Assembly: GCF_031884435.1 (NCBI RefSeq)
Contig: NZ_CP134779.1
Coordinates: 3,782,001-3,846,000 of the forward strand
DNA length: 64,000 bases
Reading direction: 5' to 3'
Origin: Bosea sp. 685
GTDB taxonomy: Bacteria > Pseudomonadota > Alphaproteobacteria > Rhizobiales > Beijerinckiaceae
The first letter of the stretch is position 1, and each line of letters opens with the position of its first letter. Made by a program: the position numbers and the translations under genes. Positions 3,041-25,361 of this stretch are shown piece after piece. The notes beneath the pieces are model-generated. The model was not told the origin of the DNA. It was given only the letters and a program-made list of their open reading frames with translations, and ran no database searches.

Positions 3041-4369
<1,329 letters not shown>

Positions 4370-4371
4370 TC

Positions 4372-8588: not shown

Positions 8589-9465
8589 TGTGCCTCTCGA
8601 AACCGGCCGGCCGATCGCCGCGCAAAGATTCCTGAATCCATCATTGCGGCGCGCGCTCGCGGAGCCCGCGACCTTCATCGGCTTCGTGCTCGTCGCCATC
8701 CACCTCTTCCTGGCGATCTTCGCGACGCTGATCTCTCCGCATGATCCGAGCGCTCTTGTCGGTGCGCCGCTGCAGCGGCCGTCCTGGCAATTCCTGATGG
8801 GAACGGACCAGATCGGGCGCGACTATTTCAGCCGCATCATCGCGGGCGGGCGGGTCGCTCTGATGGTGTCGTTCTGCGGCGTCGCGATCGCGCTCGCCTT
8901 CGGCACGGCACTCGGCATCCTCGCCGGCTATCTCGGCGGGCGGTTCGATGAGATCGTCATGCGCATCGTCGATGCGATGATGGCCATTCCCGAAATCATT
9001 CTGATCGCGATCCTGACCCTGGCTCTCGGCAAGGACATCGCCGCCCTGATACCGGTGATCGCCACGGTCTATTGCTGGGGCGCGGTCCGTGTCATCCGCG
9101 CCAAGACGATCAGCCTGTCGACGCTCGACTTCGTGCGCTCAGCCGAACTGCGCGGGGAGAGCCGGGTTGCCGTGATGCTGCGCGAGATCCTGCCGAACAT
9201 GACCGGGCTTCTCGGCGTGGAGCTGGCCGTGCGGATCTCGTCGGCCGTGCTGCGGATCAGCGCGTTGTCTTTCCTTGGCCTGGGTATCAGCCAACCCACG
9301 CCCGATTGGGGGCTGATGGTTCAGGAAGCGATGGGCGTCGTCTTCACCGATCCCTGGTTCCTGCTGCTGCCGGCGCTGATGCTGTCGAGCCTGATCGTCG
9401 GCGTGAACTTCATGGTCGACGGGCTATCGCGCGCTTTCGGAATCGCAACGACGGAGCTTGGCTGA
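8581..9465 (+). CDS. ABC transporter permease, DppC/OppC type
   Basis: 294 aa with the start taken at the ATG that overlaps the previous stop; the frame is open 21 bp further upstream (a start at 8560), but the overlap start fits coupling better. It has the DppC N-terminal segment, the motif MGTDQIGRDYFSRIIAGGR, the docking loop ELRGESRVAVMLREILPN, and the terminal motif SFLGLGISQPTPDWGLM. It pairs with the upstream permease to form the channel. The stop is 2 bp before the ATPase start. Confidence 0.92.
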   Translation: MADVPLETGRPIAAQRFLNPSLRRALAEPATFIGFVLVAIHLFLAIFATLISPHDPSALVGAPLQRPSWQFLMGTDQIGRDYFSRIIAGGRVALMVSFCGVAIALAFGTALGILAGYLGGRFDEIVMRIVDAMMAIPEIILIAILTLALGKDIAALIPVIATVYCWGAVRVIRAKTISLSTLDFVRSAELRGESRVAVMLREILPNMTGLLGVELAVRISSAVLRISALSFLGLGISQPTPDWGLMVQEAMGVVFTDPWFLLLPALMLSSLIVGVNFMVDGLSRAFGIATTELG

Positions 9466-9467
9466 CC

Positions 9468-11138: not shown

Positions 11139-12036
11139 CGCCTTCTCCGCGCCCGGCCGCTTTTTCCGCGGCAACCTGCACACGCATTCGAACCGCTCGG
11201 ACGGCAAGATCAGCCCCGAGGAGGTCTGCGCGCGTTATCGCGAGCGCGGCTACGACTTCATCTGCCTGTCAGACCATTTCATGCCGAAATACGAATATCC
11301 GATCACCGACACGACGGCCTATCGAACCGACGGCTTCTGCACGATCCTCGGGGCGGAGTGCCATGCGCCGGCGACCGCGGCGGGCGAGCAATGGCACATT
11401 CTCGCCGTTGGCCTGCCGCTTGATTTTCCGCCGAACCTGGATGGCGAGACCGGTCCGCAAATCGCCCGGCGCTGCCTCGATGCCGGAGCTTTCCTGGCGA
11501 TCCCGCATCCCGAATGGTACGGGCTGACCACGGAAGACGCCGCCAGCATTCCAGGCGCGCATGCGGTGGAGATCTATAATCATACCAGCCAGGTGCGGCA
11601 GTCGCGCGGTGGCGGCGCCTATTACCTCGACATGCTCCTGGCCGGCGGCCGGCGCATCAATGCGCTCGCCTGCGACGACGCGCACTGGCTCGTCGAGGGC
11701 GATGAAAACCGGGATGCCTTCGGCGGCTGGGTGATGGTCAAGGCCGAGCGCAACGAACCGGCCGCGCTCGTCGCGGCGCTGAAGGCCGGCCATTACTACG
11801 CGACGCAAGGCCCGGTGATCGAGACGATCGCGGTGAAGGACGGCCATATCGAGATCGCCTGCTCGGCCGCCGCGCAGATCATCGTCGTCGGCCGCGCCTC
11901 CAGGAACGAAGCGGTCGCCGGCTTCGACCTGACGCGCGCGCGCTTCCCGCTCGGGAAATTCTCGGGCAGCTGGTGCCGCGCCATGGTCGTGGCGCAGGAC
12001 GGCAAGACAGCCTGGTCGAACCCGATCTATCTCTGA
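11128..12036 (+). CDS. PHP-domain metallohydrolase (CehA/McbA-like)
   Basis: 302 aa, translationally coupled to the ATPase gene (overlap of 11 bp). The polymerase-and-histidinol-phosphatase fold is seen in GNLHTHSNRSDGK (His-x-His and Asp), FICLSDHFMPKY, a Glu in TILGAECHA, IPHPEWYG and ALACDDAHW, all likely metal ligands. The C-terminal 90 residues look like the beta-sandwich that follows PHP domains in the CehA/McbA group, which includes carbaryl hydrolase and other ester or phosphoester hydrolases. Being the last gene of an importer operon, it probably hydrolyses the imported compound in the cytoplasm. With a phosphonate cluster next door, a phosphoester or phosphonate ester is a reasonable but unproven guess. 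Confidence 0.85.
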   Translation: MPADAFSAPGRFFRGNLHTHSNRSDGKISPEEVCARYRERGYDFICLSDHFMPKYEYPITDTTAYRTDGFCTILGAECHAPATAAGEQWHILAVGLPLDFPPNLDGETGPQIARRCLDAGAFLAIPHPEWYGLTTEDAASIPGAHAVEIYNHTSQVRQSRGGGAYYLDMLLAGGRRINALACDDAHWLVEGDENRDAFGGWVMVKAERNEPAALVAALKAGHYYATQGPVIETIAVKDGHIEIACSAAAQIIVVGRASRNEAVAGFDLTRARFPLGKFSGSWCRAMVVAQDGKTAWSNPIYL

Positions 12037-12049
12037 ACCCGGCCGGGAT

Positions 12050-12152
12050 GCACGGCGTGATTCCAAGGATGAACAGCATGCTCCGGCAGGCTCCCGAGCC
12101 AGCCGGAGCATGCTTGAAACGCCGCTTCGCGGCTCCTTGGGATGAGGGCTCG
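12050..12152. repeat. Diverged copy of dispersed palindrome family B, after the PHP gene
   Basis: A 12-bp perfect inverted repeat (12076-12087 with 12102-12113, GCATGCTCCGGC and its complement) is followed by a GC-rich block ending in GGGATGAGGGCTCG. The same right-hand block, GCGGCTCCTcAGGATGAGGG, is found in the two better copies at 29680 and 50836. It begins 14 bp after the last gene of the operon and could stop or protect the transcript. Confidence 0.7.
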
Positions 12153-12293
12153 CATGATCGAACGGCCTCTCAGGCGCAAGGCCGGCAATCCCGATCTGCT
12201 TCACCGGGGGTGATCGGGAAGGGTCGGTCGCCGCAACGACCCGTTCGCATGTGTTCAGTATTGTACCATCATAAAAAACAGCCAAAGCTCGCC

Positions 12294-12381
12294 AGAGCAA
12301 TTTCCGATCCAGTTGGATCGTTCAATAGCTCTAGTTCATTGCTTCACGCGAACCGGTGTCCACTTCGCTCGAAAACGCTCT
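12294..12381 (-). repeat. Dispersed repeat family A, copy 1
   Basis: On the minus strand this reads GAGCGTTTTCGAGCGAAGTG, then GACACCGGTTCGCGTGAAG, and ends near CCAACTGGATCGGAAATTGC. The same blocks recur at 33491, 37461, 44356 and (as a fragment) 60217. All copies are intergenic. The 343-bp gap from 12037 to 12379 holds only this and the family B copy. Confidence 0.85.
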
Positions 12382-12809
12382 AAGCCAGGCTGGCGGCGCG
12401 CGGGGAGAGGCTGACCTCGCGGGCGCGGTCGAGATGACGGCGCAACAGCACCGCCGCGATCTCGCGCTCGCCGGCCTCCAGCCAGGCGATGAAGCGCTGG
12501 ATCGTGGCGCCAAGCGTCGCCGGATCGCCCCGATGCTCCATGATCGCCACCGGGGTTGGGGGCACATCACGGATCATCACATCGTCGCTGGTAAAACGCG
12601 TCTGCATGAGCTTGCTCCTCGCATCGTCGAAAGGCCCGAAGGCCGCAAACCACGGTTCCCAGTCGGGAGACTTCCGGAACGACGAAGGCGATTGGCGATT
12701 CAGCATTGGCATGAAATCAGTATGGCCATGAATTCAGCATTGGCGTGAGCCGATACGAGCCGACCGGCTTCAGCGGGACGCCATAGGCGCGCTTGAAGGC
12801 GTCGTAACG
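12380..12809 (-). pseudogene. Remnant of an AraC-type regulator with GyrI-like domain, with a foreign tail
   Basis: On the minus strand, 12809-12720 reads YDAFKRAYGVPLKPV and YRLTPMLN, the end of an AraC DNA-binding domain; it then hits a stop and shifts frame. The next open part (12712-12380, 110 aa) begins like the linker and GyrI domain that normally follow (FRKSPDWEPWFAAFGPFDDA, then IRDVPPTPVAIMEHRGDPAT, TIQRFIAW). After that Trp the sequence changes to LEAGEREIAAVLLRRHLDRA, which looks like the last helix of a GntR/FCD regulator. A 13-bp direct repeat (ATTCAGCATTGGC at 12698 and 12732) marks a small duplication that probably broke the frame. The first half of the HTH is missing. Confidence 0.65.
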
Positions 12810-12888
12810 TAAAGCCGGTTAGGCTCGACATGCCGTCGTCACAGGGGTGCCCGGTCGCGGCAGCAAGCCGCGCTCAGAATGCTCAAGC

Positions 12889-15800
12889 TCAGAACGCTAT
12901 TGTGAGAGCGGAGAGCGGAACGGCCAGGCAGGTCAGGCATTGATCGGGCTCGCCGTCGAAATCGACCATATGGGCGAAGCGCCCCTCGACGACACGAACC
13001 GAGCAGCTTTCGCATTGGCCGACCCGGCAACCGTTCGGCAGCGACAGGCCAGCAGTGAGCGCGGCATCGAGGATGGGGCCGGCGGCGGGCGTCCAGAGGA
13101 AGGATTCTCCCGTTCCCGCGATCGTCACGGTCTGCGGTTCCAGCCGGGCGGGCATCTCTCCCGGCGCAGAAAAAGCCTCAGTGAAGATGTCGAAGCGCGG
13201 CAGGCCCAGCCGCAGCAGCGCATCCGTCATCGCCTTGTTGAAGCCCGGCGAGCCGCACAGATAGGCGAGCGGCCGCTGCGGGACGAGATCTGCAATGCCG
13301 CTCAGGTCAAGCCGCCCCTCCCGGTCGAAGCGCTTCGCCAGCCGGTCCTCGTCACTTGGCTGCGAATAGGCCGTCACGCGGTGCAGCGCCTCCAGCTCTT
13401 GCGCGAGTTCGTCGAGGCGCCCGGCGAGGTAATGCTCGGCGCCGTTGCGGCAGCCATGCAGGAGGTGAACCTCGTGCGACGGCCTTGGCTTTGCAGCCGC
13501 CAGCGCTTCGAGATAGCCGATGAACGGCGTGATGCCGATCCCGCCCGCGATCAGAATGACAGGGCGCGTGCTGGTGACGGGCAGCGTGAAGACGCCGGAC
13601 GGCGCCTCGACCAGCACCGCGTCGCCGACGCGCAGATGCTGGAGGGCCAGCGAGAGCGAGGCGGCGCCTGTGGTCTGCGCGCTGCGGCGCACCGCGATCG
13701 AGAGTTCGCCTGGGCGGCTCGCCTTGCCCGTCAGGGAATAGGCGCGCGCCAGCGGCTTGTCCGGCAGGCGGATGAGGACATGCTGGCCGGGTACGAAATC
13801 GGGTAGGCCGCGATCGTCGCATGGCGCGAGCGACACTGCGATGGCGTCGAGGCCTTCCGGCTGAGCCGAGGCAACCCTGAAGCGGCGCGTGCCGGTCCAG
13901 CATCCCTGATTCGCGGAGGGGTGGCGCCGGATGTCACATCCGACGGCGCGCAACGGCACCGATCCGCTGACGGGATCGCGCTGCGCATCTCCCAGGACGG
14001 CGTTGATATTCGTCGTGTCGGAGCCGGTGATCGCGCCGCCGGCAAGCCCCAGCGGCACGCATGCCTCCCACCAGCCGAATTCCGCCACGACCGTCCGGTC
14101 GTCGAGCGCCGTGTTGATGCGGACGCGCAAGGTCGCGCGGCCGATGCGCGTCTCGACCATGGCCCAGTCCCCCTGGGACAGCCCACGCGCCTGCGCCAGG
14201 CCCGAACCGATCTCGACCGAAGGATCGGGCGCCTTGCGCCGCAGCGAGGCGATATGGCGATGCGAGCTATGCACGAACCAGCCGCTCTTGGCGGTCGTCA
14301 GCAGCAACGGCAAGGGGCTCGTTTCGGCAGGCCCGTCATCGGCTGAGACGAAATCGGCAAGCGGGTCGTAGCCATGCTCATGCATCAGCTCGGAATAGAG
14401 CTCGACGCGGCGGGTCGGGGTCGCGAAGCCCTGCGCCCCGCCCTCCCCGAGATCGGCGAATTTGCGGTAGTGGAAAGGCTGGGGGAAGCGCTTGCCATCG
14501 GGCAAGGCGCGCAATTCCTCGACCGTGACGCCAAGCGGCGCAAGCTGGTGGTTCCAGCCGGCGACGATGTCTCCTCCAAAGAAGCTGTCCGCCAGGCCCA
14601 TGCGTGTCGCCAGCGCCATGACGATCTCGTAATCGGCGCGGGACTGCGCGAACCGCGGCAGCATCTGGCGCCGGAACTGCACCGTCTCGACGGCTTCCTG
14701 CGTGATCTCGAAGCCGATGCGCAACGCCTCGCGCTCCCAGGGCATGCTCACCGGCAAGACGATGTCGGCGCATTCGGCGGTCGGATTCATGAACATGTCG
14801 GCGTGGACATGGAATTCGAGCGCCTGCAGTGCCGCAAGGTTGCGGCTCGTATCGGCCTGCGAGACGGCGAAATTCGTGCCGAAGCTCATCAGGGCGCGCA
14901 CGCGATAGGGTTCGCCCTGCAGCACCGCCCGGCTGAAGTCGCGCGCGGTGATCCAGCCGCGAGCCGGCGGCCCGAGCGGCAATTCGTCGAGGCCGAGCGC
15001 CTTCTCCTTCTGCCCTGGCGGCAGCAGCGACAGATCGTTGATCGTATTGGCCGGTGGCGGCACCGGCCAGATATTGCCGCCTTCGCGGTCACAGGAGCCC
15101 GTCAGCGCGAAGAGGGTGGCGATCGCCCTCTCGGTCATCGTCGCATTGCTGTGCTGGCCGACGCCGGTCCAGCTATAATAGGCGAGGCGAGGCGCATCTT
15201 CGAGCAGGGCGTGGAAGGCGGCGATCTCGGCCTCGGCGATCCAGGTCAGCTCCGCCACGCGGGAGAGCGTGTAGCCGCGCGCCCGTTCGGCAAGCAGGTG
15301 GAAGACGGTCGTGGCGTCGATCACGCGGCCGTCGAGCGCCTGCAGGGCGACCGCCGCGTCGAGCTGGATGCCGGCGCCATCGGGAAACGTCTGCCTGGTG
15401 TCGTAGCAGGCCGGCTTGCCGGCATCGTCGAGGATGACGAAGCCATCCGGGGCGCCCGCGATGATCTCGGATGCGCGCACAAAGCGGCCCGAGGCGCGAT
15501 CGATCAGAAGCGGCGCATTCGTCCAGTCCCGCACGAAATCGGCATCATAGCTGCGCGTCTCGATCAAATGGCGGATGGCGCCCATGGCAAGGGCGGCATC
15601 GGCGCCCGGCCGCATCCGCAGCCAAAGATCGGCCTGCTGGCCGGAGCCGTCCGGCTTGGGGTCGATGACGACGACCCTGGCGCCGCGGCTTCGCGCCTCG
15701 GCGATCCGGCTCGCCTGCGCCAGCCAGGTCCGGGCCGGGTTATGGCCCCAGAGCACGATCACATCGGCGCGCTCATAGTGCGGAATGCCGAGGCCGCGGC

Positions 15801-16263
15801 CGAATGTCAGCGCATGCGCATAATCCTTGTGCCAGCCGCAGACCTCGACCGCATAGATCAGGTTGGGGCTGCCGAAGCAGCGGATGAAGCGCTCGACCCA
15901 ATCATAGCTGTCGACGATCGGGGTGCCGCTGAAGGTCGTCATGGCGAAGGCGACGGCCTCCGCGCCCGATTCCGCGCGGATCGACAACAGGCGCGCCGCG
16001 ATCTCGTCGAGCGCTTCGTCCCAGCTGATCGGCGCCCATCGCGGCGTGCCGCCGTCCTTCCCGCCGATGCGGCGCAACGGCGTGGTCAGGCGCAGCGGGC
16101 TGTGGACCATTTCCGGCGCCGCGCGCCCCTTGGCGCACAGGGCGCCGCCCGTGGGGTGGCCGGGGCGAGGCTCGACCCCGACCATCCGGCCGTTCTCGAC
16201 GAGGGTCACCGAGCCGCAGCGCGAGCGGCACAGCGTGCAGTATCCGTCATGTCGTTCGATCAT
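12889..16263 (-). CDS. Molybdopterin oxidoreductase fused to a flavin/NAD(P)/2Fe-2S reductase
   Basis: 1124 aa from the Met at 16263; a start at 16311 (16 aa more) is also open. Four domains in order: a 4Fe-4S site with Cys9, Cys12, Cys16 and Cys43 (CTLCRSRC ... ALCAKG); a bis-MGD molybdopterin domain of the DMSO-reductase superfamily with likely Mo ligand Cys142 (VEVCGWHKDY); from about residue 760 a ferredoxin-reductase unit with flavin motif RAYSLTG and nucleotide motif GGIGITPF; and a plant-type 2Fe-2S centre at the C-terminus (GCRVGQCESC ... CLTC, Cys1079, 1084, 1087 and about 1112). No Tat signal is seen, so it should work in the cytoplasm with NAD(P)H as partner and need no other electron carrier. 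It is the last gene of an ABC importer operon. The substrate is unknown; assimilatory nitrate reductases with fused reductase parts are the nearest design known to me, but this is not obviously one. Confidence 0.88.
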   Translation of the reverse strand: MIERHDGYCTLCRSRCGSVTLVENGRMVGVEPRPGHPTGGALCAKGRAAPEMVHSPLRLTTPLRRIGGKDGGTPRWAPISWDEALDEIAARLLSIRAESGAEAVAFAMTTFSGTPIVDSYDWVERFIRCFGSPNLIYAVEVCGWHKDYAHALTFGRGLGIPHYERADVIVLWGHNPARTWLAQASRIAEARSRGARVVVIDPKPDGSGQQADLWLRMRPGADAALAMGAIRHLIETRSYDADFVRDWTNAPLLIDRASGRFVRASEIIAGAPDGFVILDDAGKPACYDTRQTFPDGAGIQLDAAVALQALDGRVIDATTVFHLLAERARGYTLSRVAELTWIAEAEIAAFHALLEDAPRLAYYSWTGVGQHSNATMTERAIATLFALTGSCDREGGNIWPVPPPANTINDLSLLPPGQKEKALGLDELPLGPPARGWITARDFSRAVLQGEPYRVRALMSFGTNFAVSQADTSRNLAALQALEFHVHADMFMNPTAECADIVLPVSMPWEREALRIGFEITQEAVETVQFRRQMLPRFAQSRADYEIVMALATRMGLADSFFGGDIVAGWNHQLAPLGVTVEELRALPDGKRFPQPFHYRKFADLGEGGAQGFATPTRRVELYSELMHEHGYDPLADFVSADDGPAETSPLPLLLTTAKSGWFVHSSHRHIASLRRKAPDPSVEIGSGLAQARGLSQGDWAMVETRIGRATLRVRINTALDDRTVVAEFGWWEACVPLGLAGGAITGSDTTNINAVLGDAQRDPVSGSVPLRAVGCDIRRHPSANQGCWTGTRRFRVASAQPEGLDAIAVSLAPCDDRGLPDFVPGQHVLIRLPDKPLARAYSLTGKASRPGELSIAVRRSAQTTGAASLSLALQHLRVGDAVLVEAPSGVFTLPVTSTRPVILIAGGIGITPFIGYLEALAAAKPRPSHEVHLLHGCRNGAEHYLAGRLDELAQELEALHRVTAYSQPSDEDRLAKRFDREGRLDLSGIADLVPQRPLAYLCGSPGFNKAMTDALLRLGLPRFDIFTEAFSAPGEMPARLEPQTVTIAGTGESFLWTPAAGPILDAALTAGLSLPNGCRVGQCESCSVRVVEGRFAHMVDFDGEPDQCLTCLAVPLSALTIAF

Positions 16264-16369
16264 CACGCGCCTCGAAGCGGTTTCGTCCCAGTGCGCGTCT
16301 TGCGCGCGCATTCTCGTTCGGGCGCGGCCCTCGCCGCGCGCGCGTCATCCCTGCCGGTGCCTCAAAATC

Positions 16370-17431
16370 TCAGAAGGCGCGTGTCGCTGCCGCTGACCAT
16401 GCCGCGACCACGCGGTCGCCCGGCCTGGGAAGCTCGCTCTGCGCGATATCCTGGTTCTGCTTATGGGCGATCAGGCGCTGGCCGGCATCGCTGCGGACGA
16501 TGAATTCGGTCAGCGCACCGCGATAGGAGACCGCCTCGACAGTCGCTGCCATCTGGTTATCCGCATGGATCGCCATTGCAGGCCGGTGCAAGCTGATGCG
16601 TTCGGGGCGGATCGCGATGGTCGAGGCGCCGGCGCGACGCGCATCGGCCGTGATTGCCAGCGTTTCGCCGTTGCTGGCGCGGAAGCGGTCCGGCGCGGCG
16701 AGATCGCCCTCCATGAAGTTCGCCAGGCCGATGAATTCGGCGACGAAGCGGCTCGCCGGCGCCTCATAGATCTCGTGAGGCGTGCCGATCTGCTCGACCT
16801 TGCCCGCCGACATCACCACAATCCTGTCGGCCACGCTCATCGCCTCGTCCTGGTCATGCGTGACGAAGATGGTGGTGAGACCGAGCTTCGACTGGAGACG
16901 CCGCAGATCGGTCCTGACCTCGTGCCTCAGCCTGGCGTCCAGCGCCGACAGGGGTTCGTCGAGGAGCAGGACTTCCGGCTGGTAGACGATGGCGCGCGCC
17001 AGGGCGACGCGCTGTTGCTGGCCGCCGGAGAGCTGCTTGGGCAGCCTGTCCGCCAGATGATCAAGCTTGACGAGGGACAAGGCCTCGATGACGCGCGCTT
17101 GCGTCTCCTCGCGGCCGACCTTGCGCATCTCCAGCCCGAAGGCGACGTTCTGGGCGACGCTCATATGCGGGAAGAGCGCGTAGCCCTGGAAGACCAGGCC
17201 GGCATCGCGCAGATAGGGCGGCAGCACCGTCACGTCGCGGTCGCCGAAATGGATGCTGCCCTCGCTGGCGAGGGCGAGTCCCGCGATCATGCGCAGCGTC
17301 GTCGTCTTGCCGCAGCCGGAGGGGCCGAGGAAGGCGATGAACTCGCCCTGTGTGATCTCGAGCGAGACCTTGTCGACCGTGGTCAGGCTGCCATAGCGCT
17401 TGGTTACGTCGCGAAGTGTGATCTTTGACAT
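16370..17431 (-). CDS. ABC transporter ATP-binding protein (polyamine/iron/2-aminoethylphosphonate type)
   Basis: 353 aa. Walker A is GPSGCGKTT, the signature [15 protein letters not shown], Walker B LLLDEPLSALD, and the switch histidine is in FVTHDQDEAM. The C-terminal 110 residues form the TOBE regulatory beta-barrel (IAIRPERISL, VEAVSYRGALTEFIV). This build is shared by PotA, FbpC and PhnT ATPases. Its start is 10 bp after the permease stop. Between its stop and the molybdoenzyme start there are 58 or 106 bp without a terminator, so the enzyme is probably in the same transcript. Confidence 0.9.
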   Translation of the reverse strand: MSKITLRDVTKRYGSLTTVDKVSLEITQGEFIAFLGPSGCGKTTTLRMIAGLALASEGSIHFGDRDVTVLPPYLRDAGLVFQGYALFPHMSVAQNVAFGLEMRKVGREETQARVIEALSLVKLDHLADRLPKQLSGGQQQRVALARAIVYQPEVLLLDEPLSALDARLRHEVRTDLRRLQSKLGLTTIFVTHDQDEAMSVADRIVVMSAGKVEQIGTPHEIYEAPASRFVAEFIGLANFMEGDLAAPDRFRASNGETLAITADARRAGASTIAIRPERISLHRPAMAIHADNQMAATVEAVSYRGALTEFIVRSDAGQRLIAHKQNQDIAQSELPRPGDRVVAAWSAAATRAF

Positions 17432-17441
17432 CGACGCCTTC

Positions 17442-18272
17442 TCAGAATGCGCGCGTGAGCTTGAAATAGCGGTCCGTGACCACGAGCCCGGCCGCGATGA
17501 GGACGATCTGGACGGTGGCGACGGCCGCGATCGTGGGATCGATGCTCCACTCCAGATAGTTCACGATGGCGATGGGCAGCGTGGTGGTGCCGGGCCCCAC
17601 CAGGAACAGGGACTTCTCGAGGTCGACGAACGAGACCACGAACGAGAACAGCCCACCCGCCACGACACCCGGCCGGATGACCGGCCAGGTCACGCGCCAG
17701 AAGGCCTTGAGCGGCCGGGCTCCCATGGTGAGCGCCGCTTCCTCGAGCTGGCGGTCGGCTCCCAGCAGCGAGGCGGTGACGAGCCTGACCGTCCAGGGCA
17801 GAGCGATGAGGCTGTGGGCGATCGCCAGCCCAGCAAAGGTCATCGCGATCTGGATGCCGGTCACGACCTCGATCTCGATCAGGAACATGTAGAAGGCCGC
17901 GCCCGCGACGATGCCCGGCACGATCAATGGCGCCAGCAGCAAGGCCTGGATCGCCTCCCGCCCGGGAAAATCGCCCCGCGCCAGCACGACGGAGGCGGGA
18001 ACGCCGACCAGCAGGCTGACCAGCGTCGCCACCATGCCCAGTTGCAGGCTGGTGACGAAGCCGTCGCGAAACCGGGTCATCTCCCAGGCAGCCAGATACC
18101 AGTCGAGCGTGTAGCCGCTCGGCGGAAAGCCGATGATCTTGTTCTTGAAGAAGCTGACCCAGATCACCGCGACGAGCGGCGCCAGCACCGCCACGAAGGC
18201 GATGGCGGAGCCCAGGATCATGGCGGGACGAAAGCTGTCGAATCTTACCGGAGTGGCGCGCCGCATCGTCAC
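17442..18272 (-). CDS. ABC transporter permease, PotC type
   Basis: 276 aa inner-membrane protein. A first membrane segment at about residues 16-36 (AMILGSAIAFVAVLAPLVAV) is followed by the PotC loop (FFKNKIIGFPPSGYTLDWYL) and the docking loop EEAALTMGARPLKAFWRVTW. Its start overlaps the stop of the upstream permease by 4 bp. It forms the channel with that permease. Confidence 0.9.
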   Translation of the reverse strand: MTMRRATPVRFDSFRPAMILGSAIAFVAVLAPLVAVIWVSFFKNKIIGFPPSGYTLDWYLAAWEMTRFRDGFVTSLQLGMVATLVSLLVGVPASVVLARGDFPGREAIQALLLAPLIVPGIVAGAAFYMFLIEIEVVTGIQIAMTFAGLAIAHSLIALPWTVRLVTASLLGADRQLEEAALTMGARPLKAFWRVTWPVIRPGVVAGGLFSFVVSFVDLEKSLFLVGPGTTTLPIAIVNYLEWSIDPTIAAVATVQIVLIAAGLVVTDRYFKLTRAF

Positions 18273-19198
18273 ACCATCCCGTAGCGCTTGCGCAGCGTGA
18301 CACTCGACAGCACGGTCAGCGCGAAGGTGACGCCCATCAGGATGAAGGCTAGACTCGCCGCGAAAGGCCAGTTGTAGACCTTGATCGCCTGCTCATAGAC
18401 CTTCGGCGCCATCATCTGGAAGGACGGCCCTCCGATCAGGACGGGCGTCGCATAGGCGTTCACGGCCAGCACGAAGCAGAGCAGGCAGCCGGAGAAGATG
18501 CCGGGCATCGCCAGCGGCAGCAGCACGCGAAAGAACATCGACCAGGGCCGGGCGCCAAGGCTGAGCGCCGCCTCCTCGTAGATTTCGCCGATGCCCTCGA
18601 ACACGCTCTGCAGCGAGATGATCATGAAGGGCAGGAGCACGGCGATGAGGCCGATCACGACCGCAGCGCCCGTATAGAGAATGCGGACAGGCTCGACGAT
18701 GATGCCGGCGTAAAGCAGCGCCGAATTGACCAGCCCACGATCCGCCAGCAGCACCATCCAGCCGGCGGCGCGCACGGCATTGCCCATCAAAAGGGGGATG
18801 ATCGTCGCCAGGATCAGCGCGGTCTTCAGGCCCGGGCTCGTCAGGCGCGTGAGGATGTAGGCCGCAGGCAGGCCCAGCAGCAGGCAGACCACTGTGCAGG
18901 AGGCCGCGACCGTCAAGGTGCGCGCCAGAATCCACAGATAGAACGGATCGCCGAAGAAGCGCGTATAGTTCTCCAGCGTCAGCCCCTCGGTGGCGACCTG
19001 GCCCGGATCGAACACCGCGAGACTCGTCCGCCCCATCATGACGAGGGGCAGGACAAGGCCGGCCAGCACCAGGGTCAGGCTCGGGAGCAGCAGCCAGCCG
19101 GCACTGAACCGGCGGGCGGGGCGCGGCGAAAGGCTCGGTGCGGGGGCATCCAAGGCCAGGGTCAAGCCTTGAATTCCTTGTTCCACCATTCGACCCAT
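18269..19198 (-). CDS. ABC transporter permease, PotB type
   Basis: 309 aa as drawn. The membrane part begins near residue 34 (WLLLPSLTLVLAGLVLPLVM) and the docking loop is YEEAALSLGARPWSMFFRVL. The N-terminus is uncertain: the ATG at 19198 lies 37 bp inside the binding-protein gene, while a TTG at 19165 overlaps that gene's TGA by the TTGA arrangement and has AAGGA about 8 nt upstream. The TTG start would give 298 aa and is my favoured choice on spacing; the coordinates keep the longest frame. Confidence 0.88.
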   Translation of the reverse strand: MGRMVEQGIQGLTLALDAPAPSLSPRPARRFSAGWLLLPSLTLVLAGLVLPLVMMGRTSLAVFDPGQVATEGLTLENYTRFFGDPFYLWILARTLTVAASCTVVCLLLGLPAAYILTRLTSPGLKTALILATIIPLLMGNAVRAAGWMVLLADRGLVNSALLYAGIIVEPVRILYTGAAVVIGLIAVLLPFMIISLQSVFEGIGEIYEEAALSLGARPWSMFFRVLLPLAMPGIFSGCLLCFVLAVNAYATPVLIGGPSFQMMAPKVYEQAIKVYNWPFAASLAFILMGVTFALTVLSSVTLRKRYGMV

Positions 19199-20223
19199 TT
19201 CGGATCGTTCTTGGCCGCGTAGGCGTAGTCGACGAAGTTCAGCTTGGCGATTTGCTCGGGCGTGAGTTCGAGTCGCTTGCGCACATCAGATGCAAGCTCG
19301 GCATTGCCGGTCACCACTGAATAGGAGGTCGCCTCCGCGATCGCGCCCATGGGCTTGGGCTGCAGCATCGCGTCGAGATATTTATAGGCGCCGTCGGTAT
19401 TGCGGGCGCGCTTGGGAATACCGGCTCCGAACGAGACGAAGACCGCGCCTTCCCCGGGGTAGGCCCAGCGGATCGGCAGGCCTTCGACCTCCCATTGCAC
19501 AGCCCGGGCGCTGTAATTGGCCGAGATCCAGATCTCCTCGTCCTTGAAGGCGGCGGCGAGCGCCTGGTGCGAGGGGTAAAGCCGCGGTTGGACGGCCTTC
19601 TTCATATCGAGCAGCGCCGGGAAGGCCTTGCCGACATCGCCCATCGAGCCGCCATGGGAGAGCGCGGCGGCATAGATGTAGTTGAAGTAGATCTGGTCCA
19701 TCAGCCCGACGCGGCCGGCATATTTCGGGTTCCACAGATCGGTGAAGCTCGTGGGGGGCTCGGGAATCTTGGCGGGATTGTAGAGGATCACCACGCCGCC
19801 ATAGATGCAGGGCACGAGATAGGGCAGCCGGAACTTCTCGTTGACGCTGCCAAGGCTGGGGATGCGCGCGACATCGAGCGTCTCGAGCGCGCCCTGTGCG
19901 TTCATTTCATAGGCGTCGGCGTCGCTGAGCCAGGTCACGTCGACGGTGCCGCGCGGCAGCCGGCGCTCGGCGAGGAGCTTGGCCTTGCGCTCAGGCACCG
20001 GAGCGAGGTCATGGACGATGCGCAGCGGCGAGGCACCGAAGGCCGGGGCTTCAAACCCCTTCACGATGCGTTCGTTCCAGTCGCCGCCCCAGTTCGAGAC
20101 GACCAGATCGCCGCTCTGCGCCTGTGAGGGCGTGGGCAGCATTGCGCCCAGGGCAGTGGCCGCCCCAAGTCCGAGAAGGCGCCGACGGTCGAGACCGTCC
20201 GCCGCAAGATGATGATCCGACAC
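19162..20223 (-). CDS. ABC transporter substrate-binding protein, PotD/AfuA-like (type 2 periplasmic fold)
   Basis: 353 aa. A Tat signal (DRRRLLGLGAATALGAM, ending near PSQAQSG) precedes a mature protein starting LVVSNWGGDWNERIVKGFE, the usual opening of polyamine/thiamine/iron-type binding proteins. Further family points are YGGVVILYNPAKI, FTDLWNPKYAGRVGL and ISANYSARAVQWEVEGLP. The acidic pocket residues that hold polyamines cannot be located with confidence, so the ligand is open. It is the first gene of the importer-molybdoenzyme operon and is transcribed away from a response regulator across a 116-bp gap with a direct repeat. Confidence 0.88.
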   Translation of the reverse strand: MSDHHLAADGLDRRRLLGLGAATALGAMLPTPSQAQSGDLVVSNWGGDWNERIVKGFEAPAFGASPLRIVHDLAPVPERKAKLLAERRLPRGTVDVTWLSDADAYEMNAQGALETLDVARIPSLGSVNEKFRLPYLVPCIYGGVVILYNPAKIPEPPTSFTDLWNPKYAGRVGLMDQIYFNYIYAAALSHGGSMGDVGKAFPALLDMKKAVQPRLYPSHQALAAAFKDEEIWISANYSARAVQWEVEGLPIRWAYPGEGAVFVSFGAGIPKRARNTDGAYKYLDAMLQPKPMGAIAEATSYSVVTGNAELASDVRKRLELTPEQIAKLNFVDYAYAAKNDPKWVEWWNKEFKA

Positions 20224-20308
20224 GGTTATTCCCCTTGATTGGGGCCGCTCTCGGCGGCCCGCATTCCTTCACCCTTCGGGGTGTGAACCTGCAAGCTAAC
20301 CTCAGCGC

Positions 20309-20339
20309 GCTTCACGAATGAGTTGTAATTGCTTCACGA
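20309..20339. promoter_or_regulatory. Direct repeat in the gap between binding protein and response regulator: candidate operator
   Basis: GCTTCACGA occurs at 20309-20317 and again at 20331-20339, 22 bp apart (about two helical turns). The gap separates two divergent genes. OmpR-type regulators bind pairs of direct repeats, so this is a candidate site for the regulator encoded immediately downstream. The second half-site touches the proposed TTG start codon. Confidence 0.5.
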
Positions 20340-21113
20340 TTGTTTCAGCCTCGAGGGACTCCAGACAGGGGACGTCCGATCAAGCGACTGCTGCTCATCG
20401 AGGATGACGACACCTTCGGCATTCTTCTCGCCGCCTATTTCAAGACGGCGAGCTACCTCACCGAGAGAGTGGGATCGGCGGAGGCCGGGCTAAGGCGGCT
20501 GGATCGCGAGAGCTGGGACGCCGTCATCATCGATCTCAACCTGCCTGACGAGGACGGCATCGTGCTGACGCGCATGGTGCGGGCGCGGTCGTCCATCCCG
20601 ATCGTCGTGGTCACGGGGCGCCATGGCGCGGAAGACCGGCTGCTGGCGCTGGAAATCGGCGCGGATGATTTCATCACCAAGCCATTCGAGCCGCGCGAGC
20701 TCGTGCTGCGCCTCAACAACATCCTGCGCCGCGGCGAGCGGCAGGACAAAAATCCCGCCATCCGCCTGGGTTGCGCCGGCGGGGAGCTCGATCTGGCGGG
20801 CCGCACCCTGCTCAACGGCGCCGGCGACAGGGTCGATCTGAGCGCGATCGAATTCGCAATGCTGACCGTGCTGGCGCGAAGCCCGGATCGCGTTCTGACG
20901 CGCGCCCAGATGATCGATGCCGTAACCAGTGGCGACGCCCCGGAAACCGAGCGCGCCATCGATATCAGGATTTCGCGGCTGCGCAGAAAGCTGGCAGAGG
21001 CCGGGCTCGACACCGCCTTGCTGAAGACGGTCCGGGGCTATGGCTACAAGCTCGAAACCGCGCCGCGGCTTCAGGCCGGAGGGACCGGCCGCGCCTCGAG
21101 ACGCGACGCATAG
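20340..21113 (+). CDS. OmpR-family response regulator (TorR-like)
   Basis: 257 aa. The receiver domain (about residues 18-130) has the acidic pair in LLLIEDDDTFG, the phosphorylated Asp in VIIDLNLPDEDG, the Thr in IVVVTGRHG and the Lys in ITKPFEPRE. The C-terminal winged helix spans about residues 150-240 (AIDIRISRLRRKL, LLKTVRGYGYKLE). The only usual start codon upstream of the receiver is the TTG at 20340, without a clear ribosome site; the frame closes upstream at 20319. It faces the hybrid kinase gene tail to tail with 43 bp overlap. It probably controls the importer-molybdoenzyme operon on its other side. Confidence 0.9.
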   Translation: MFQPRGTPDRGRPIKRLLLIEDDDTFGILLAAYFKTASYLTERVGSAEAGLRRLDRESWDAVIIDLNLPDEDGIVLTRMVRARSSIPIVVVTGRHGAEDRLLALEIGADDFITKPFEPRELVLRLNNILRRGERQDKNPAIRLGCAGGELDLAGRTLLNGAGDRVDLSAIEFAMLTVLARSPDRVLTRAQMIDAVTSGDAPETERAIDIRISRLRRKLAEAGLDTALLKTVRGYGYKLETAPRLQAGGTGRASRRDA

Positions 21114-23362
21114 TCTGCCATCTGCGCGATCGCGTCGGTGAGGCAGTCGATCAGGAGCCGGTTCTGACGTTGCGATATGGCGCCGTCCGCCTCCGCGATG
21201 GGGTGCAGGGTTCTGTCCGACAGCTCATGGAAGCCGAAAAGGCCGGCGGCGGCATGCACCTTGTGCATCAGCTTTCCGAGTTCGCCCTCACCGCTCGATG
21301 ATTGCGCCAGCGCCTCGGCGGCCTGCCGGAAGGTCGCGTTGCCCGCGACGACGATCGCATGGACATTCTCCGCCCCGACATCACCGACCATGCGGTCGAG
21401 TCGGGAGGTGTCGAAATCGCCAAGGCTGTCCGCCCGCTCGGAAAAGCGCAGGCGATCCTGCGGCTGCAGCACGCCGATGCCGCGCGCGAAATCGCGTGTC
21501 GCCGTCAGCGTCTCCGCCAATTGCTCCAGGGCGACAGGCTTCTCGACGAAGCCGGTGAAGCCCGCCGCGAAATAGGTCTCGATATCGGCGGGCAGCACGT
21601 TTCCGGTCATGGCGATGATGGCTGGCCGGCCCACTGCCGGCCGCGCATTGGCGATCCACCGGGCGACATCGATGCCGGACATGTCCTGCATCGATATGTC
21701 GAGAAGGACGGCGTCATAGGAACGCTGCTCCAGGGCGGCGATGCCCGCCCGGCCGTCGAGCGCGGTCGTCACCCTGTGACCGAGCCTTTTCAGCAGCGCT
21801 TCGGCGACGATCAGGTTGATCGGCTCGTCATCGACGACCAGGACATCGAGCGGTGGGCTACCGGCGCGGGTGATGGCGTCCGAAGCGACTAGCGTCTCCG
21901 GCTGATGCATCTCGCCGAGGCTGGCGAGGGGGACATCGACCCAGGCCCGCGTCCCGCGATGGCGGCCGGGCGCCAGCCCCAGCTGGGCGCCGATGGCCTC
22001 CGCCAGTTCCTCGCTGATCGCCAATCCCAATCCAAGGCCTTCGATTCCCGAGGCGACATGGTCCTTGTGCCTGCCATAAGGCGCGAAGGGGCGTCGCGAG
22101 CGATCCTTGTCGATGCCGGGACCGGAATCGGTGATGGTGACGCGCAGCACCGGGCCGCTGCGGGCATTGTGGCGGACGGATGCCCGCAGCGAGATCGCGC
22201 CCGACGAGGTGTATTTGAACGCATTGCTCAGCAGATTGAAGAAGATCTGCCGCAGGCGCCGGGGATCCGACCAGATCGGCATCAATCTGTCGGGGCTGAT
22301 GCGGGCATGGAAGGTCAGGCCCTTCTGCTTCGCCATGGACCGCGCTAGGCCGGCGATCTCCTGAAGCAGGGGATGACTTTCGACGATCTCGCACTGGATG
22401 GCGACGCGGCCCGAGGTGATGCTTGCGATGTCGAGGATATCGTTCAGGACATCGCGCATCGCGCGGGATGCACCGACAAGGTTCTGGATCATCGCGTGGT
22501 GCCGCTTTGGCATCGTCTCCTCGGCCAGGAGTTGCGCGATGCCGTAGATCACGTTCAGCGGATTGCGCAGTTCATGCCCGACCTTGGTGATGAATTGGGT
22601 GCGCATGGCGATCTCCGCCTCGGCCCTGGCGCGGGCGGCCCTGAGATCGCGCTCGCGCGCCTTGAGCACGGTGATGTCGGCTCGGATGCTGGTCGTGCCG
22701 CCAGAGGGGGTGCGCCTTTCGCTGACCTGGATCCAGCGCCCATCGGCAAGTTGCTGCTCGAAGAAGCCGATACCGGTCCTGTGGAAGGAGATACGCCGCT
22801 CGACCCAGTTGTCCTCGTCATCACTGATCTTGAAGACGCCTCGGCGCACGCTTTCGCGCACCAGATCCGGGAAATAGAGCCCCGGCCTCATGAGATCGGC
22901 GACTGCAGGGTAGAGGCGCTTGTACTGCGCATTGCAGATCAGCATCCGATCTTCCGCATCATAGAGCACGAAGGCTTCCGGCAGGGCTTCCACGCCTTCG
23001 ATCAAGGCGCGGCTCACTGCATCGGATCGCCCCTCGCGGGCGAGCTCATCGGGAAATACCGCACCCGCCGCCTCGAGCGGGCCGATCCACCGGCCAAACA
23101 CCGCGGCGCCATCAATCGCGAGAAAGGGAGGACTGGCGGCGATATGGCCTGTAAAGGCCGAGTTGTCCCGAGCCGCGGACTGCGCGAGCTGGCTGAGCGT
23201 CGCAATCCTCCGATCAGGAAGCCGGACCTGCGCATCGCCTTTGCGGAGCTGCGATGCATCCACGGCCCTCTTGAGGGATGCCGGAATAGTCCATGTGATC
23301 TCGTTTGCACGTCCGGACCAGTGCCAGAGCAACGCATCACCCGAGACAGCTTCATCAACCAT
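21071..23362 (-). CDS. Cytoplasmic hybrid histidine kinase (PAS-HK-REC-Hpt, TorS-like order)
   Basis: 763 aa. Domains in order: an N-terminal region (1-110) that resembles a decayed PAS fold; a PAS domain about 122-235 (ALPEAFVLYDAEDRMLICNA); the kinase H-box with His263 in KVGHELRNPLNVI; the ATP-binding domain (NLLSNAFKYT, DSGPGIDKD, GLGLGLAISEELAE); a receiver (VLVVDDEPINLIVAE, Asp in VLLDISMQDMSG); and a C-terminal phosphotransfer domain (LGKLMHKVHAAAGLFGFHEL). No membrane segment is seen, unlike TorS, so the signal is internal. The order fits a four-step relay ending on the neighbouring response regulator. Confidence 0.9.
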   Translation of the reverse strand: MVDEAVSGDALLWHWSGRANEITWTIPASLKRAVDASQLRKGDAQVRLPDRRIATLSQLAQSAARDNSAFTGHIAASPPFLAIDGAAVFGRWIGPLEAAGAVFPDELAREGRSDAVSRALIEGVEALPEAFVLYDAEDRMLICNAQYKRLYPAVADLMRPGLYFPDLVRESVRRGVFKISDDEDNWVERRISFHRTGIGFFEQQLADGRWIQVSERRTPSGGTTSIRADITVLKARERDLRAARARAEAEIAMRTQFITKVGHELRNPLNVIYGIAQLLAEETMPKRHHAMIQNLVGASRAMRDVLNDILDIASITSGRVAIQCEIVESHPLLQEIAGLARSMAKQKGLTFHARISPDRLMPIWSDPRRLRQIFFNLLSNAFKYTSSGAISLRASVRHNARSGPVLRVTITDSGPGIDKDRSRRPFAPYGRHKDHVASGIEGLGLGLAISEELAEAIGAQLGLAPGRHRGTRAWVDVPLASLGEMHQPETLVASDAITRAGSPPLDVLVVDDEPINLIVAEALLKRLGHRVTTALDGRAGIAALEQRSYDAVLLDISMQDMSGIDVARWIANARPAVGRPAIIAMTGNVLPADIETYFAAGFTGFVEKPVALEQLAETLTATRDFARGIGVLQPQDRLRFSERADSLGDFDTSRLDRMVGDVGAENVHAIVVAGNATFRQAAEALAQSSSGEGELGKLMHKVHAAAGLFGFHELSDRTLHPIAEADGAISQRQNRLLIDCLTDAIAQMADYASRLEARPVPPA

Positions 23363-23608
23363 GGAGCGCTATATGCCTGTTTCAAAGAAGGCCGGCACCG
23401 AGGTTGTTCAATTCGGCATTGGCGCAAAAGCACTTTTCGGCAACCAAAAGAACTTTTCAGCGACGATGAGCATCGGAGTTTGGCAAACTGCGGGCCTGAA
23501 ACCACATCCACGTGCAATCGTGCAGCCACAGTAGCGATTTCGGCCCGGAAACAGGCCACGCCAATCTCTTGTGCATATCGTTTGCGAGCGAATACGGAAT
23601 ACCAAGGT

Positions 23609-23811
23609 TTGTGGTCTGGCGACGGTCGAGGCTGTCTCCTATCAGGGGGCCACGCTCCTATCAGGGGGCCACGGTCTATGTTCATGCGCGCCTCGCCGAC
23701 GGAACCTTCGTGATTTGTGCCGCGACGCCGGAATCCAGCCGTATCGCCGCGCAAGGCGACGCTATCGGGCTGCTGCCGGCCAGAACGCGCCTGGTCGCTT
23801 TCCCGATTTGA
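23609..23811 (+). pseudogene. C-terminal remnant (TOBE domain) of a PotA-type ABC ATPase, broken by a 19-bp duplication
   Basis: Two frames together read LATVEAVSYQGA and then SYQGATVYVHARLADGTF, VICAATPESSRIAAQGDAIG and TRLVAFPI before a stop, the end of a TOBE domain. The frame changes exactly at a 19-bp tandem duplication (23637-23655 and 23656-23674, unit TCCTATCAGGGGGCCACG plus one base). Removing one unit restores a single frame. The ATPase domain is absent; 23363-23608 upstream shows no gene. It is not a piece of the ATPase at 16370, whose TOBE sequence differs. Confidence 0.72.
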
Positions 23812-23887
23812 TGGGCAACGATGCCACGACGCGCAGATTGTCGTTGGGAGGCCTATTCTCAGATGGGGAGACCAGGCGCCGGTGGCG

Positions 23888-24292
23888 TCAGGCAAGATCC
23901 CAGGGATTGATCACGGACACGCCGGTATCGTCGAAATCCACGACATTGCGGGTGACGAGGATGAGATCATGCACGATCGCCGTGGCCGCGATCAACCCAT
24001 CGACGTCACCGCGCGGCCGGATCGCGGCGATGCGGCCCCATTCGACCGAGATCTGGTCGCTCACCGGCAGGATGCGATCGGCATGATCATGGCGGATCCT
24101 GCGTAGCCACTCGGCAAGATGGCTGGCCGCCTTCGGGTCCGACTTTTGCTTCAGGGCGATGCCGCGCATGATCTCGCCGAGCGTCAGGGTGCTGAGATGG
24201 ACGCTGCCGGGAGCGACCGAGCGCAGCCAGGTCAGTGACGGCGGCGAGCCGCGCCTGGCCTCCGAGATGACGTTGGTGTCGACGAGATACAT
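23888..24292 (-). CDS. vapC: VapC-type PIN-domain toxin
   Basis: 134 aa PIN-domain ribonuclease. The acidic site is seen in LVDTNVISEA (first Asp), LTLGEIMRGI (Glu) and DVDGLIAATA, with LVTRNVVDFDDTGV at the end. In this family the toxin cuts tRNA or rRNA when free of its antitoxin. Its ATG overlaps the antitoxin stop by one base (TGATG), the usual coupling of such modules. Confidence 0.9.
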   Translation of the reverse strand: MYLVDTNVISEARRGSPPSLTWLRSVAPGSVHLSTLTLGEIMRGIALKQKSDPKAASHLAEWLRRIRHDHADRILPVSDQISVEWGRIAAIRPRGDVDGLIAATAIVHDLILVTRNVVDFDDTGVSVINPWDLA

Positions 24293-24546
24293 CAGAACGC
24301 CGCGTCGCGGCTCGGCGTCTTGGCGCGCCGCGTCAGCGCCTCGGCGAATTCGTCGTCCCAGGCCGGGCCGGAGAGCAGATCGTCAACCAGAGTCGGCCGC
24401 CCGGCGCGCAACGCATCGTAGTCGGAGGCCGAGAGCACCACAGCGGTGCGCTCGCCGCGCAAGGTGACGATCTGCGGGCCTTCGAGCCGGGCTTTCCGCA
24501 CCACCTTGGAGAACTGGTTCTTGGCGTCCTGGAGCGGCCATTCCAT
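24292..24546 (-). CDS. Antitoxin of the Phd/YefM type, partner of the PIN toxin
   Basis: 84 aa from the ATG at 24546, chosen because AGGAG lies 9 nt upstream; a TTG two codons earlier is less well placed. The N-terminal Phd fold is clear (WPLQDAKNQFSKVVRKARLE, then PQIVTLRGERTAVVLSASDY). This half binds DNA and represses the operon, while the C-terminal half (LLSGPAWDDEFAEALTRRAK) wraps the toxin. A candidate operator with a perfect 15-bp palindrome lies 67 bp upstream. Confidence 0.9.
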   Translation of the reverse strand: MEWPLQDAKNQFSKVVRKARLEGPQIVTLRGERTAVVLSASDYDALRAGRPTLVDDLLSGPAWDDEFAEALTRRAKTPSRDAAF

Positions 24547-24565
24547 GTTCAAGCACTCCTGGTGA

Positions 24566-24616
24566 GCAAGGACTTCTGGTTAGCGAGAGCCTTCGGCTAG
24601 CAAGCGCTTCTGGCTA
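24566..24616. repeat. 17-bp imperfect tandem repeat x3 upstream of the antitoxin
   Basis: Three units follow one another: GCAAGGACTTCTGGTTA, GCGAGAGCCTTCGGCTA and GCAAGCGCTTCTGGCTA. They fill the 5' untranslated space between the likely promoter and the antitoxin start, so they would be transcribed. Confidence 0.75.
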
Positions 24617-24655
24617 GACTGTCTAGCTATATGGCGCGCGTTCTGATTGGATCAA
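24613..24655 (-). promoter_or_regulatory. Candidate promoter and operator of the toxin-antitoxin operon
   Basis: On the minus strand a -35 like TTGATC (24655-24650) and a -10 like TATAGC (24631-24626) are 18 bp apart. A perfect palindrome GCTAGAC-T-GTCTAGC (24613-24627) overlaps the -10. A dyad at this position is what an autorepressing Phd-type antitoxin needs. Confidence 0.5.
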
Positions 24656-24710
24656 TGCCCCACCCGTCCGATTTCCGGCCCGGGTTGTTTTCGAGCGAAG
24701 CGGCTCTCCT

Positions 24711-25361
24711 TCAGCCGGTCGACGCAGCGGTGAAGACCGCCAGCTGCGCGTCGAAGGCACGCTTGTATGCGGGCCGCGCTTCAGCCCGGGCGACATAGGC
24801 ACAGAGGTTCGGATAGTTCTCCAGCAGGCCCGATCCCTGCAGCCTGCGCAGCACCGTCACCATCAGCAGGTCACCGGCGCTGAACGCTCCATCGAGCCAG
24901 TCGGCATCGCTAAGGCGGCTGGACAGCGCGCCCAGCAGTTTCGCGATGCTGTCCTCCAGCGCCCGCAGGCGCCGCTCATACCAGGGTTCGTCGCGCTCGA
25001 AGATCGTGGCGAGGGCGCGCTCGAAGATCGGCGGCTCCAGCGTGTTGAGGGCGGCAAACATCCACGCGATCGCGCGCGCGCGGGCATTCGCATCGCCGGG
25101 CAGCAGGCCCGCATGCCGTTCGGCGATATGGAACACGATCGCGCCCGACTCGAACAGAGCGAGATCGCCCTCCTCATAGGTCGGGATCTGCCCGAAAGGA
25201 TGCAGCGCCAGATGCGCGGGCTGCTTCATCGCGCCAAACGACAGCAGCCGGACATCATAGGCCTGGCCAACCTCCTCAAGCGCCCAACGCACGCGCATGT
25301 CGCGCGCCAGCCCCCTGCCGCGATCGGGGGATCGTTCAAAGGCGGTGATGGTAACGGTCAT
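24711..25361 (-). CDS. Glutathione S-transferase family protein
   Basis: 216 aa with the two-domain GST layout. The thioredoxin-fold half (about 1-85) has the glutathione-binding stretch GQIPTYEEGDLALFESGAIV with its cis-Pro and Glu-Ser. The helical half (about 95-205) has WLDGAFSAGDLLMVTVLRRL, the buried Asp-containing N-capping motif of the family. No catalytic Cys or Tyr can be named with certainty (first strand TITAFERSPDRGRG). GGAG lies 7 nt before the ATG. It stands alone; neighbours do not suggest a substrate. Confidence 0.88.
   Translation of the reverse strand: MTVTITAFERSPDRGRGLARDMRVRWALEEVGQAYDVRLLSFGAMKQPAHLALHPFGQIPTYEEGDLALFESGAIVFHIAERHAGLLPGDANARARAIAWMFAALNTLEPPIFERALATIFERDEPWYERRLRALEDSIAKLLGALSSRLSDADWLDGAFSAGDLLMVTVLRRLQGSGLLENYPNLCAYVARAEARPAYKRAFDAQLAVFTAASTG

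Follow-up and report, generated by a model that had tools for sequence, protein, structure and literature searches.

Architecture of the locus

The locus described here occupies positions 12889–23362 of a 64,000-nucleotide stretch of Bosea sp. 685 (contig NZ_CP134779.1, positions 3,782,001 to 3,846,000; hereafter the window) and combines an ATP-binding cassette (ABC) importer, a self-contained Mo/W oxidoreductase (MoOR), and a two-component pair. All seven genes are open. Reading frames and Pfam domains confirm the order given in a preliminary description made from the sequence alone: substrate-binding protein (SBP), two permeases, ATPase, and an MoOR of 1124 residues in tight succession on the minus strand, with a divergent OmpR-type response regulator (RR) and a hybrid histidine kinase (HK). 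Along the minus strand, the SBP (19162..20223; SBP_bac_8/6) is followed by the PotB-like permease 1 (18269..19198; BPD_transp_1), the PotC-like permease 2 (17442..18272; BPD_transp_1), the PotA/PhnT2-like ATPase (16370..17431; ABC_tran, TOBE_2), and MoOR (12889..16263). Within the importer, the four genes overlap or are spaced by 10 bp, MoOR follows the ATPase after a gap of 106 bp, and the five genes form one operon. A simple promoter scan of positions 12000–24800 yielded 0 sigma-70-like sites (mean of 1.3 in shuffled sequence). The RR gene (20340..21113, plus strand; Response_reg, Trans_reg_C) and the HK gene (21071..23362, minus strand) are convergent and overlap by 43 bp. A chance assembly of this gene set is excluded, since the same set recurs in other genera.

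The HK is a soluble hybrid kinase in which PAS_7, HisKA, HATPase_c, and REC exceed their Pfam cut-offs, as described before. For the Hpt domain also assigned to it, the Pfam model gives no score even at E values up to 10. Its C-terminus is Hpt-like by the motif HKV[HR]AxAGL[FL]G, which is conserved in 5/5 HK orthologues. The highest 19-residue Kyte–Doolittle mean is 1.2, and hence the HK has no membrane-like segment; for this reason it is predicted to be an internal, cytoplasmic sensor, in agreement with the preliminary description. A Tor-like relay had been proposed as well. The architecture is indeed TorS/ArcB-like, and, as in TorS/TorR, a hybrid kinase of relay-like layout and an OmpR-type regulator are encoded next to a molybdoenzyme. 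Kinship with Tor is nevertheless rejected: HK scores 274 bits against TorS (TIGR02956; cut-off 676.5) and RR 151 bits against TorR (PRK10766; cut-off 275), TorS is a membrane-anchored sensor whereas the kinase is soluble here, and the enzyme is not TorA, having a Cys metal ligand and separate BisC/TorA-like, NasC-like, and formate dehydrogenase (FDH) genes in the same genome.

Between the SBP and RR genes lies a candidate response-regulator box of four direct repeats at 11-bp spacing (20309..20347). Its units read TGAAACA-n4 on the minus strand, and the box stands 85 bp before the SBP start. Four TGAAACA-like direct repeats are found at this place in 5/5 kinase-type loci. Among four diverged loci, 21/39 columns of the box are invariant, compared with 18/75 and 8/34 gap-free columns in the flanks, and the self-match at a shift of 11 bp is 0.56 as opposed to 0.18–0.35 at the other shifts from 7 to 15. 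With ≤2 mismatches allowed, a 29-base pattern of the repeat has a single occurrence in the own genome and its reversed control has none. The single Xanthobacter locus compared (L041) showed no such repeat.

The molybdoenzyme and its relatives

MoOR starts with an ATG at 16263, and this start is kept in close orthologues, which share an M-x-E-R-H segment; a longer frame of 1140 residues from 16311 is also open. The single chain exceeds the Pfam cut-offs for Molybdop_Fe4S4, Molybdopterin, Molydop_binding, FAD_binding_6, NAD_binding_1, and Fer2. Herein, a [4Fe-4S] domain and a domain of the bis(molybdopterin guanine dinucleotide) (bis-MGD) type, with Cys142 as the expected metal ligand, are joined to FAD/NAD(P)-binding domains and a C-terminal 2Fe-2S domain. 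For the C-terminal module, the matches are to flavohemoprotein and phthalate-dioxygenase-reductase chains, in which such modules deliver electrons from NAD(P)H. In the fold comparison, which hardly covers this reductase part, acetylene hydratase (2E7Z) is the nearest solved relative, and FDH chains come second.

The cysteines of the C-x2-C-x3-C...C cluster motif and the metal ligand (C9, C12, C16, C43, and C142) are present in 58/58 family rows, and the ligand neighborhood mostly reads E-[IV]-C-[NG]-W-H-K-D. Position 13, between the second and the third cluster Cys, is occupied by R in 48 rows, K in 3, V in 3, W in 2, I in 1, and A in 1. It is never Asp (0/58), as opposed to 9/10 far relatives. 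Asp13 of acetylene hydratase is described, in an excerpt of the respective report, as subfamily-specific, and its change to Ala as abolishing activity (PMC12096430). Membership in the acetylene hydratases is thus rejected, although the cluster motif and Cys ligand are present; the fused NAD(P)H reductase and 2Fe-2S domain, the ligand neighborhood, and the importer operon are further differences. By the same position, a non-redox hydratase or lyase, in which the fused module would merely keep the metal reduced and active, is distinctly improbable despite the structural relationship. The far relatives (L054–L064), 9/10 of which carry the acetylene-hydratase-type Asp after the second Cys, come from Myxococcota, Acidimicrobiaceae, Mycobacterium simiae, and others, and the two of their sequences that were inspected show an ALCAGNTA-like ligand motif.

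MoOR reaches no NCBIfam cut-off among the profiles shown. The best profile is that of FDH alpha (TIGR01591; 223 bits, cut-off 666), which, together with the second rank of FDH chains in the fold comparison, would suit a dehydrogenase that oxidizes the imported compound and passes the electrons through its fused module to NAD+, like cytoplasmic FDHs. NAD-linked FDHs use NuoEF-type modules, whereas the module here is of the flavohemoprotein/phthalate-dioxygenase-reductase type, normally feeding electrons outward. The genome moreover has a separate FDH gene (L003) above the TIGR01591 cut-off (925 versus 666), and we consider the dehydrogenase reading unlikely.

An assimilatory nitrate, S-oxide, or N-oxide reductase of the usual Nas/Bis/Tor kind was also weighed. 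N–O cleavage is normal MopB chemistry, and one deeper locus (L083) contains an ABC set that is NitT/TauT-like by gene starts alone, a class that includes the nitrate importers. The scores of MoOR are far too low, with 134 bits against NasC (NF047855; cut-off 1100) and 81 bits against bisC_fam (cut-off 1018). DMSO, TMAO, and biotin sulfoxide reductases have a Ser metal ligand, and the position aligns as Cys in 58/58 rows of the MoOR family. The genome carries a separate NasC-like gene (405 bits, under the NasC cut-off) and BisC/TorA-like genes (926 and 820 bits, under 1018), and the importers beside close relatives of MoOR are of the Pot and TIGR00366 types. The closest parallel is found in Bradyrhizobium, where the available portion of PMC4724949 describes a cytoplasmic MopB reductase, NasC, with a C-terminal 2Fe-2S domain that is fed from NAD(P)H by a separate flavoprotein, Flp, with an ABC nitrate importer nearby. 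In MoOR the reductase is fused, and the types of importer and regulator differ. A reductase of this usual kind is consequently given little probability, and the operon is probably neither a Tor nor a nitrate system.

Two further systems belong to the surroundings of acetylene hydratase. Catechol dehydroxylases are placed closest to it in the portion of PMC7028382 consulted, and this MopB/DMSO reductase branch is listed among the closest systems; MoOR is set beside the dehydroxylases on the basis of this description. In the metallopterin-dependent ergothioneine synthase MES, an acetylene-hydratase-like module is likewise fused to a partner enzyme domain. According to the excerpt of that report, the partner is a cysteine desulfurase, MES is reported only from anaerobes, and an NAD(P)H module is not described (PMC9516567). 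Ergothioneine desulfurization was considered from the same source but finds no support in the loci.

Among the titles and abstract starts listed from the open-licence literature, which for acetylene hydratase included 25 of 97 matches, neither the gene set nor the MoOR family is described, and no description was among the matches listed for ergothioneine desulfurization, thiourocanate, and pyrrole-2-carboxylate (12 of 13 for the last). This agrees with the earlier statement that no such system is described. The parts are of known kinds. The MoOR family itself recurs and is marked by a ligand neighborhood and an NAD(P)H module of its own; no reaction is assigned to it in the profile libraries and literature searched.

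The importer and the exchange of partners

The twin Arg R13 R14 of the SBP is invariant in 45/45 aligned SBPs, as expected from its earlier description as a Tat-type binding protein. An SBP recorded for Bosea vaviloviae is 95% identical to it. The predicted model (pLDDT of 90) resembles PotD/PotF, the GABA receptor Atu4243, and opine-binding proteins about equally well (Z scores of about 29–32); hence, the fold does not choose among polyamine, GABA, and opine binders. A polyamine-like substrate had been among the options of the preliminary description. We take the ligand residues of PotD to be D168, E171, and D257, which align with Q177, F180, and F265 of the SBP; of these, Q177 and F265 hardly vary across the 45 SBP relatives. 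Since three acidic ligand residues are thus replaced by Gln, Phe, and Phe, polyamines are disfavored, and the operon is probably not for polyamines; the SBP scores 45 bits against the PotD model (cut-off 582). The ATPase provides a counterpoint, as it exceeds the cut-off of the potA (polyamine) subfamily TIGR01187 (365.3 versus 355.6 bits). It stays below those of the Escherichia coli PotA equivalog PRK09452 (366.8 versus 482) and of its best NCBIfam model, PhnT2 (407.3 versus 457.7). Compared with the PotABCD, Atu4243, and opine importers, SBP fold and operon layout are shared in addition to this subfamily score, whereas the missing acidic residues, the Tat signal, and the partner enzyme are different. 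A derivation of the substrate from other SBP relatives was given up, as beyond the own gene there are only matches of 38–42% (class sample) and 35–41% (plasmids), which say little.

A search for MoOR homologues scored 7987 candidates, of which 809 proteins reach E ≤ 1e-100. Their distribution is patchy: MoOR is present in 13/67 genomes of the genus, in 16/397 of the order (E ≤ 1e-120), where seven have reductase-less forms only, and in 5/398 of the phylum (E ≤ 1e-150). Nine distinct close loci from Bosea, Methylobacterium, and Xanthobacter were counted, namely the window, L070, L049, L078, L039, and L040–L043, with L071 being a duplicate of L049. The importer lies directly upstream of MoOR in all nine, with both permeases in their conserved places, which upholds the pairing proposed before. 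The kinase and regulator were retained to a lesser extent (5/9); the four Xanthobacter loci instead have a divergent GntR/FCD gene. Homologues beside unrelated genes had been named in advance as evidence against the grouping, and this is partly what distant relatives show, adjoining other importers or none. In the Bosea genome of L078 (G029), MoOR is split over three reading frames, and another genome (G001, L079) retains only its last 124 residues.

The Xanthobacter loci have some neighbors of their own. Downstream of MoOR, L041 contains UbiX/UbiD-like and phenolic acid decarboxylase genes by Pfam (15331–18004), and L043 contains UbiD-like and decarboxylase-like gene starts. An aromatic-acid substrate, suggested by these and by pirin-like and tautomerase-like neighbors, was dropped, as such neighbors were seen only in Xanthobacter; the single PDB match of the tautomerase-like gene is a lysozyme fragment.

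A second group comprises 13 distinct loci (L044–L048, L050, L073, L075, L076, L081, L082, L118, and L120, with the duplicates L072, L074, L077, and L119 excluded). In 13/13, a divergent GntR/FCD gene is present, and a TIGR00366/PF02667-like transporter, Pfam-tested in L045, follows directly downstream of MoOR. The GntR/FCD genes of Xanthobacter are 58–59% identical to those of this group. No Pot-type operon adjoins MoOR here; an unlike one, with an SBP 23–24% identical, lies several kilobases off in a few of the loci.

The relationship of both forms was inferred with IQ-TREE from 42 rows of the Mo domain, including 10 of the 13 transporter-type loci and leaving out the broken L078. The importer loci are monophyletic (8 rows, 100/100) and join four transporter-type loci in a clade of 12 rows (95/88), which is nested with six further transporter-type loci in a clade of 18 rows (100/100). 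This nesting places the origin of the importer form inside the transporter form. In Xanthobacter, the new importer occurs together with the older type of regulator, and yet Xanthobacter is not basal in the importer clade (93/79), so that the order of regulator changes is not fixed by the tree; some deeper rows are long and unsure in their placement. Judged from these sequences, importer and regulator were exchanged around a constant enzyme. That the enzyme stays while the importer changes is as expected if the importer serves the enzyme, and such exchange offers a direct route to the substrate via the binding protein.

The transporter-type loci also bear on a possible role in phosphonate catabolism. 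At 413–5823 (plus strand), 7 kb away, the window encodes PhnD, PhnC, PhnE, the phosphonoacetate hydrolase PhnA, and the phosphonoacetaldehyde dehydrogenase PhnY, each of which exceeds its NCBIfam cut-off, and a similar cluster, judged by gene lengths and starts, lies beside MoOR in L075, L118, and L120. In addition, PhnT2 for the ATPase and phnR for the GntR of the transporter clade (103 bits) are the best-scoring models. Both remain under their cut-offs, however (271.5 for phnR). Inspection of the gene lists by eye, no family search having been made there, shows no such cluster in L046, L047, L048, L050, L073, and L076, and the same holds for the loci of Xanthobacter, Bradyrhizobium, and Enterovirga and for the plasmid tables with annotation. 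We regard a part in phosphonate catabolism as highly improbable.

Deeper relatives and the proposed reaction

Twenty-six deeper loci (about 38–50% identity over Mo and reductase parts) were compared, comprising L080, L083–L090, L116, and 16 of 39 plasmid records chosen for variety. In Variovorax (L114), the Mo and reductase parts are two genes, and in Caballeronia NK8 (L115) the enzyme is divided into two pieces. TIGR00366-type transporters lie next to the enzyme in four loci, annotated as such in Paraburkholderia and Rhodococcus opacus 1CP and recognized by similarity in Cupriavidus and Caballeronia. A homologue of the ketimine reductase Pyr2C/Pip2C (pyrroline-2-/piperideine-2-carboxylate reductase) adjoins in 8/26, that is, in these four and in Agrobacterium cucumeris, Phaeobacter, G254, and the own-genome paralogue. 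Those of L101 and L104 exceed the NF004793 cut-off of 322 with 390 and 406 bits, and the other six are assigned by similarity only. In Rhodococcus opacus, genes for a proline dehydrogenase and pruA follow at a distance of about 2.6 kb. LIV-like ABC genes adjoin MoOR in Agrobacterium cucumeris and beside the own paralogue (L080, C2:5946459-5949749; 47–48% identity), which also has an XRE-cupin-like regulator. The Ti plasmid of Agrobacterium leguminum contains a Pot-like row SBP-ATPase-permease-permease-MoOR, whose SBP matches those of Xanthobacter and Bosea L049 at 31–33%; it looks like a second, separate pairing of importer and MoOR. The Klebsiella and Enterobacter plasmid relatives L103 and L105 lie among heavy-metal genes, with MerR/CueR-like regulators, P-type ATPases, and a CopZ-like small protein.

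Gene order, domains, conservation, partner exchange, and the repeat, all read from sequence, are consistent with a two-component–controlled operon for the uptake of an amino-acid-like carboxylate and its NAD(P)H-driven reduction in the cytoplasm, and we hold this reading to be rather probable. The Tat-exported SBP and the Pot-type importer would take up a small amino-acid-like carboxylate, which the single-chain bis-MGD enzyme would then reduce in the cytoplasm with electrons passing from NAD(P)H over flavin, 2Fe-2S, and 4Fe-4S to the metal. The soluble phosphorelay HK may sense a cytoplasmic signal, and the OmpR-type RR may bind the four-unit 11-bp repeat and thereby control the operon. The preliminary description had the substrate imported and either reduced or oxidized in the cytoplasm at the cost of NAD(P)H. 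Its import and cofactor parts gain from the importer pairing and the enzyme's own electron-input module; that the direction is reduction and that importer and enzyme share one substrate is what we infer, mostly because of this module and because importers change around an enzyme that stays.

Several observations weigh against this proposal. HK and RR are absent from 4/9 close loci and hence not core. The repeat box overlaps the annotated TTG that opens the RR frame, which leaves its role at the RR promoter and the RR start or autoregulation uncertain, and the ATPase, as given above, exceeds the potA (polyamine) subfamily cut-off. No importer is listed beside MoOR in the incomplete gene tables of Sphingobium L102, Klebsiella L103, Enterobacter L105/L111, and Mesorhizobium L112. 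A TIGR00366 transporter is missing from 22/26 deeper loci and a ketimine reductase homologue from 18/26, many having neither. By similarity search, a ketimine reductase homologue was found in 0/9 importer-type loci, and those of the transporter-type loci L081 and L082, at 28–32% identity, lie beside other genes and were not counted. Finally, eight loci of the order and another three, from Nocardioides and Phycicoccus, encode a reductase-less form of about 780 residues, and a search of these loci (L051–L053 and L091–L098) for the reductase part gave no homologue.

The ketimine reductase homologues beside relatives suggest an α-imino acid as the product at this locus as well. Coming only from relatives, this idea is weaker than the proposed uptake and reduction, and we put it forward tentatively. 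One fitting stoichiometry would be the two-electron reduction of pyrrole-2-carboxylate to Delta1-pyrroline-2-carboxylate, followed by formation of proline through the neighboring ketimine reductase; we know of no precedent for the reduction of a pyrrole ring by a MopB enzyme. Another that fits would be N–O cleavage of an α-oximino acid to the imino acid. That the family as a whole forms a new class of Mo reductases, self-contained and driven by NAD(P)H, which convert oxidized N-containing carboxylates to imino acids, with the copy in the window acting on an imported compound under phosphorelay control, is a speculative extension and quite unlikely to hold in full. If the imino-acid reading were true, a new reductive route would lead into the amino-acid metabolism of aerobic bacteria.

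Among the other neighbors in the window, a CehA/McbA-family metallohydrolase (11128–12036, plus strand; NF038032 over its cut-off) stands beside a Dpp/Opp-like importer row (5940–11138), and a pair of PIN-domain toxin-like and Phd/YefM antitoxin-like genes (23888–24546, minus strand) adjoins the HK.

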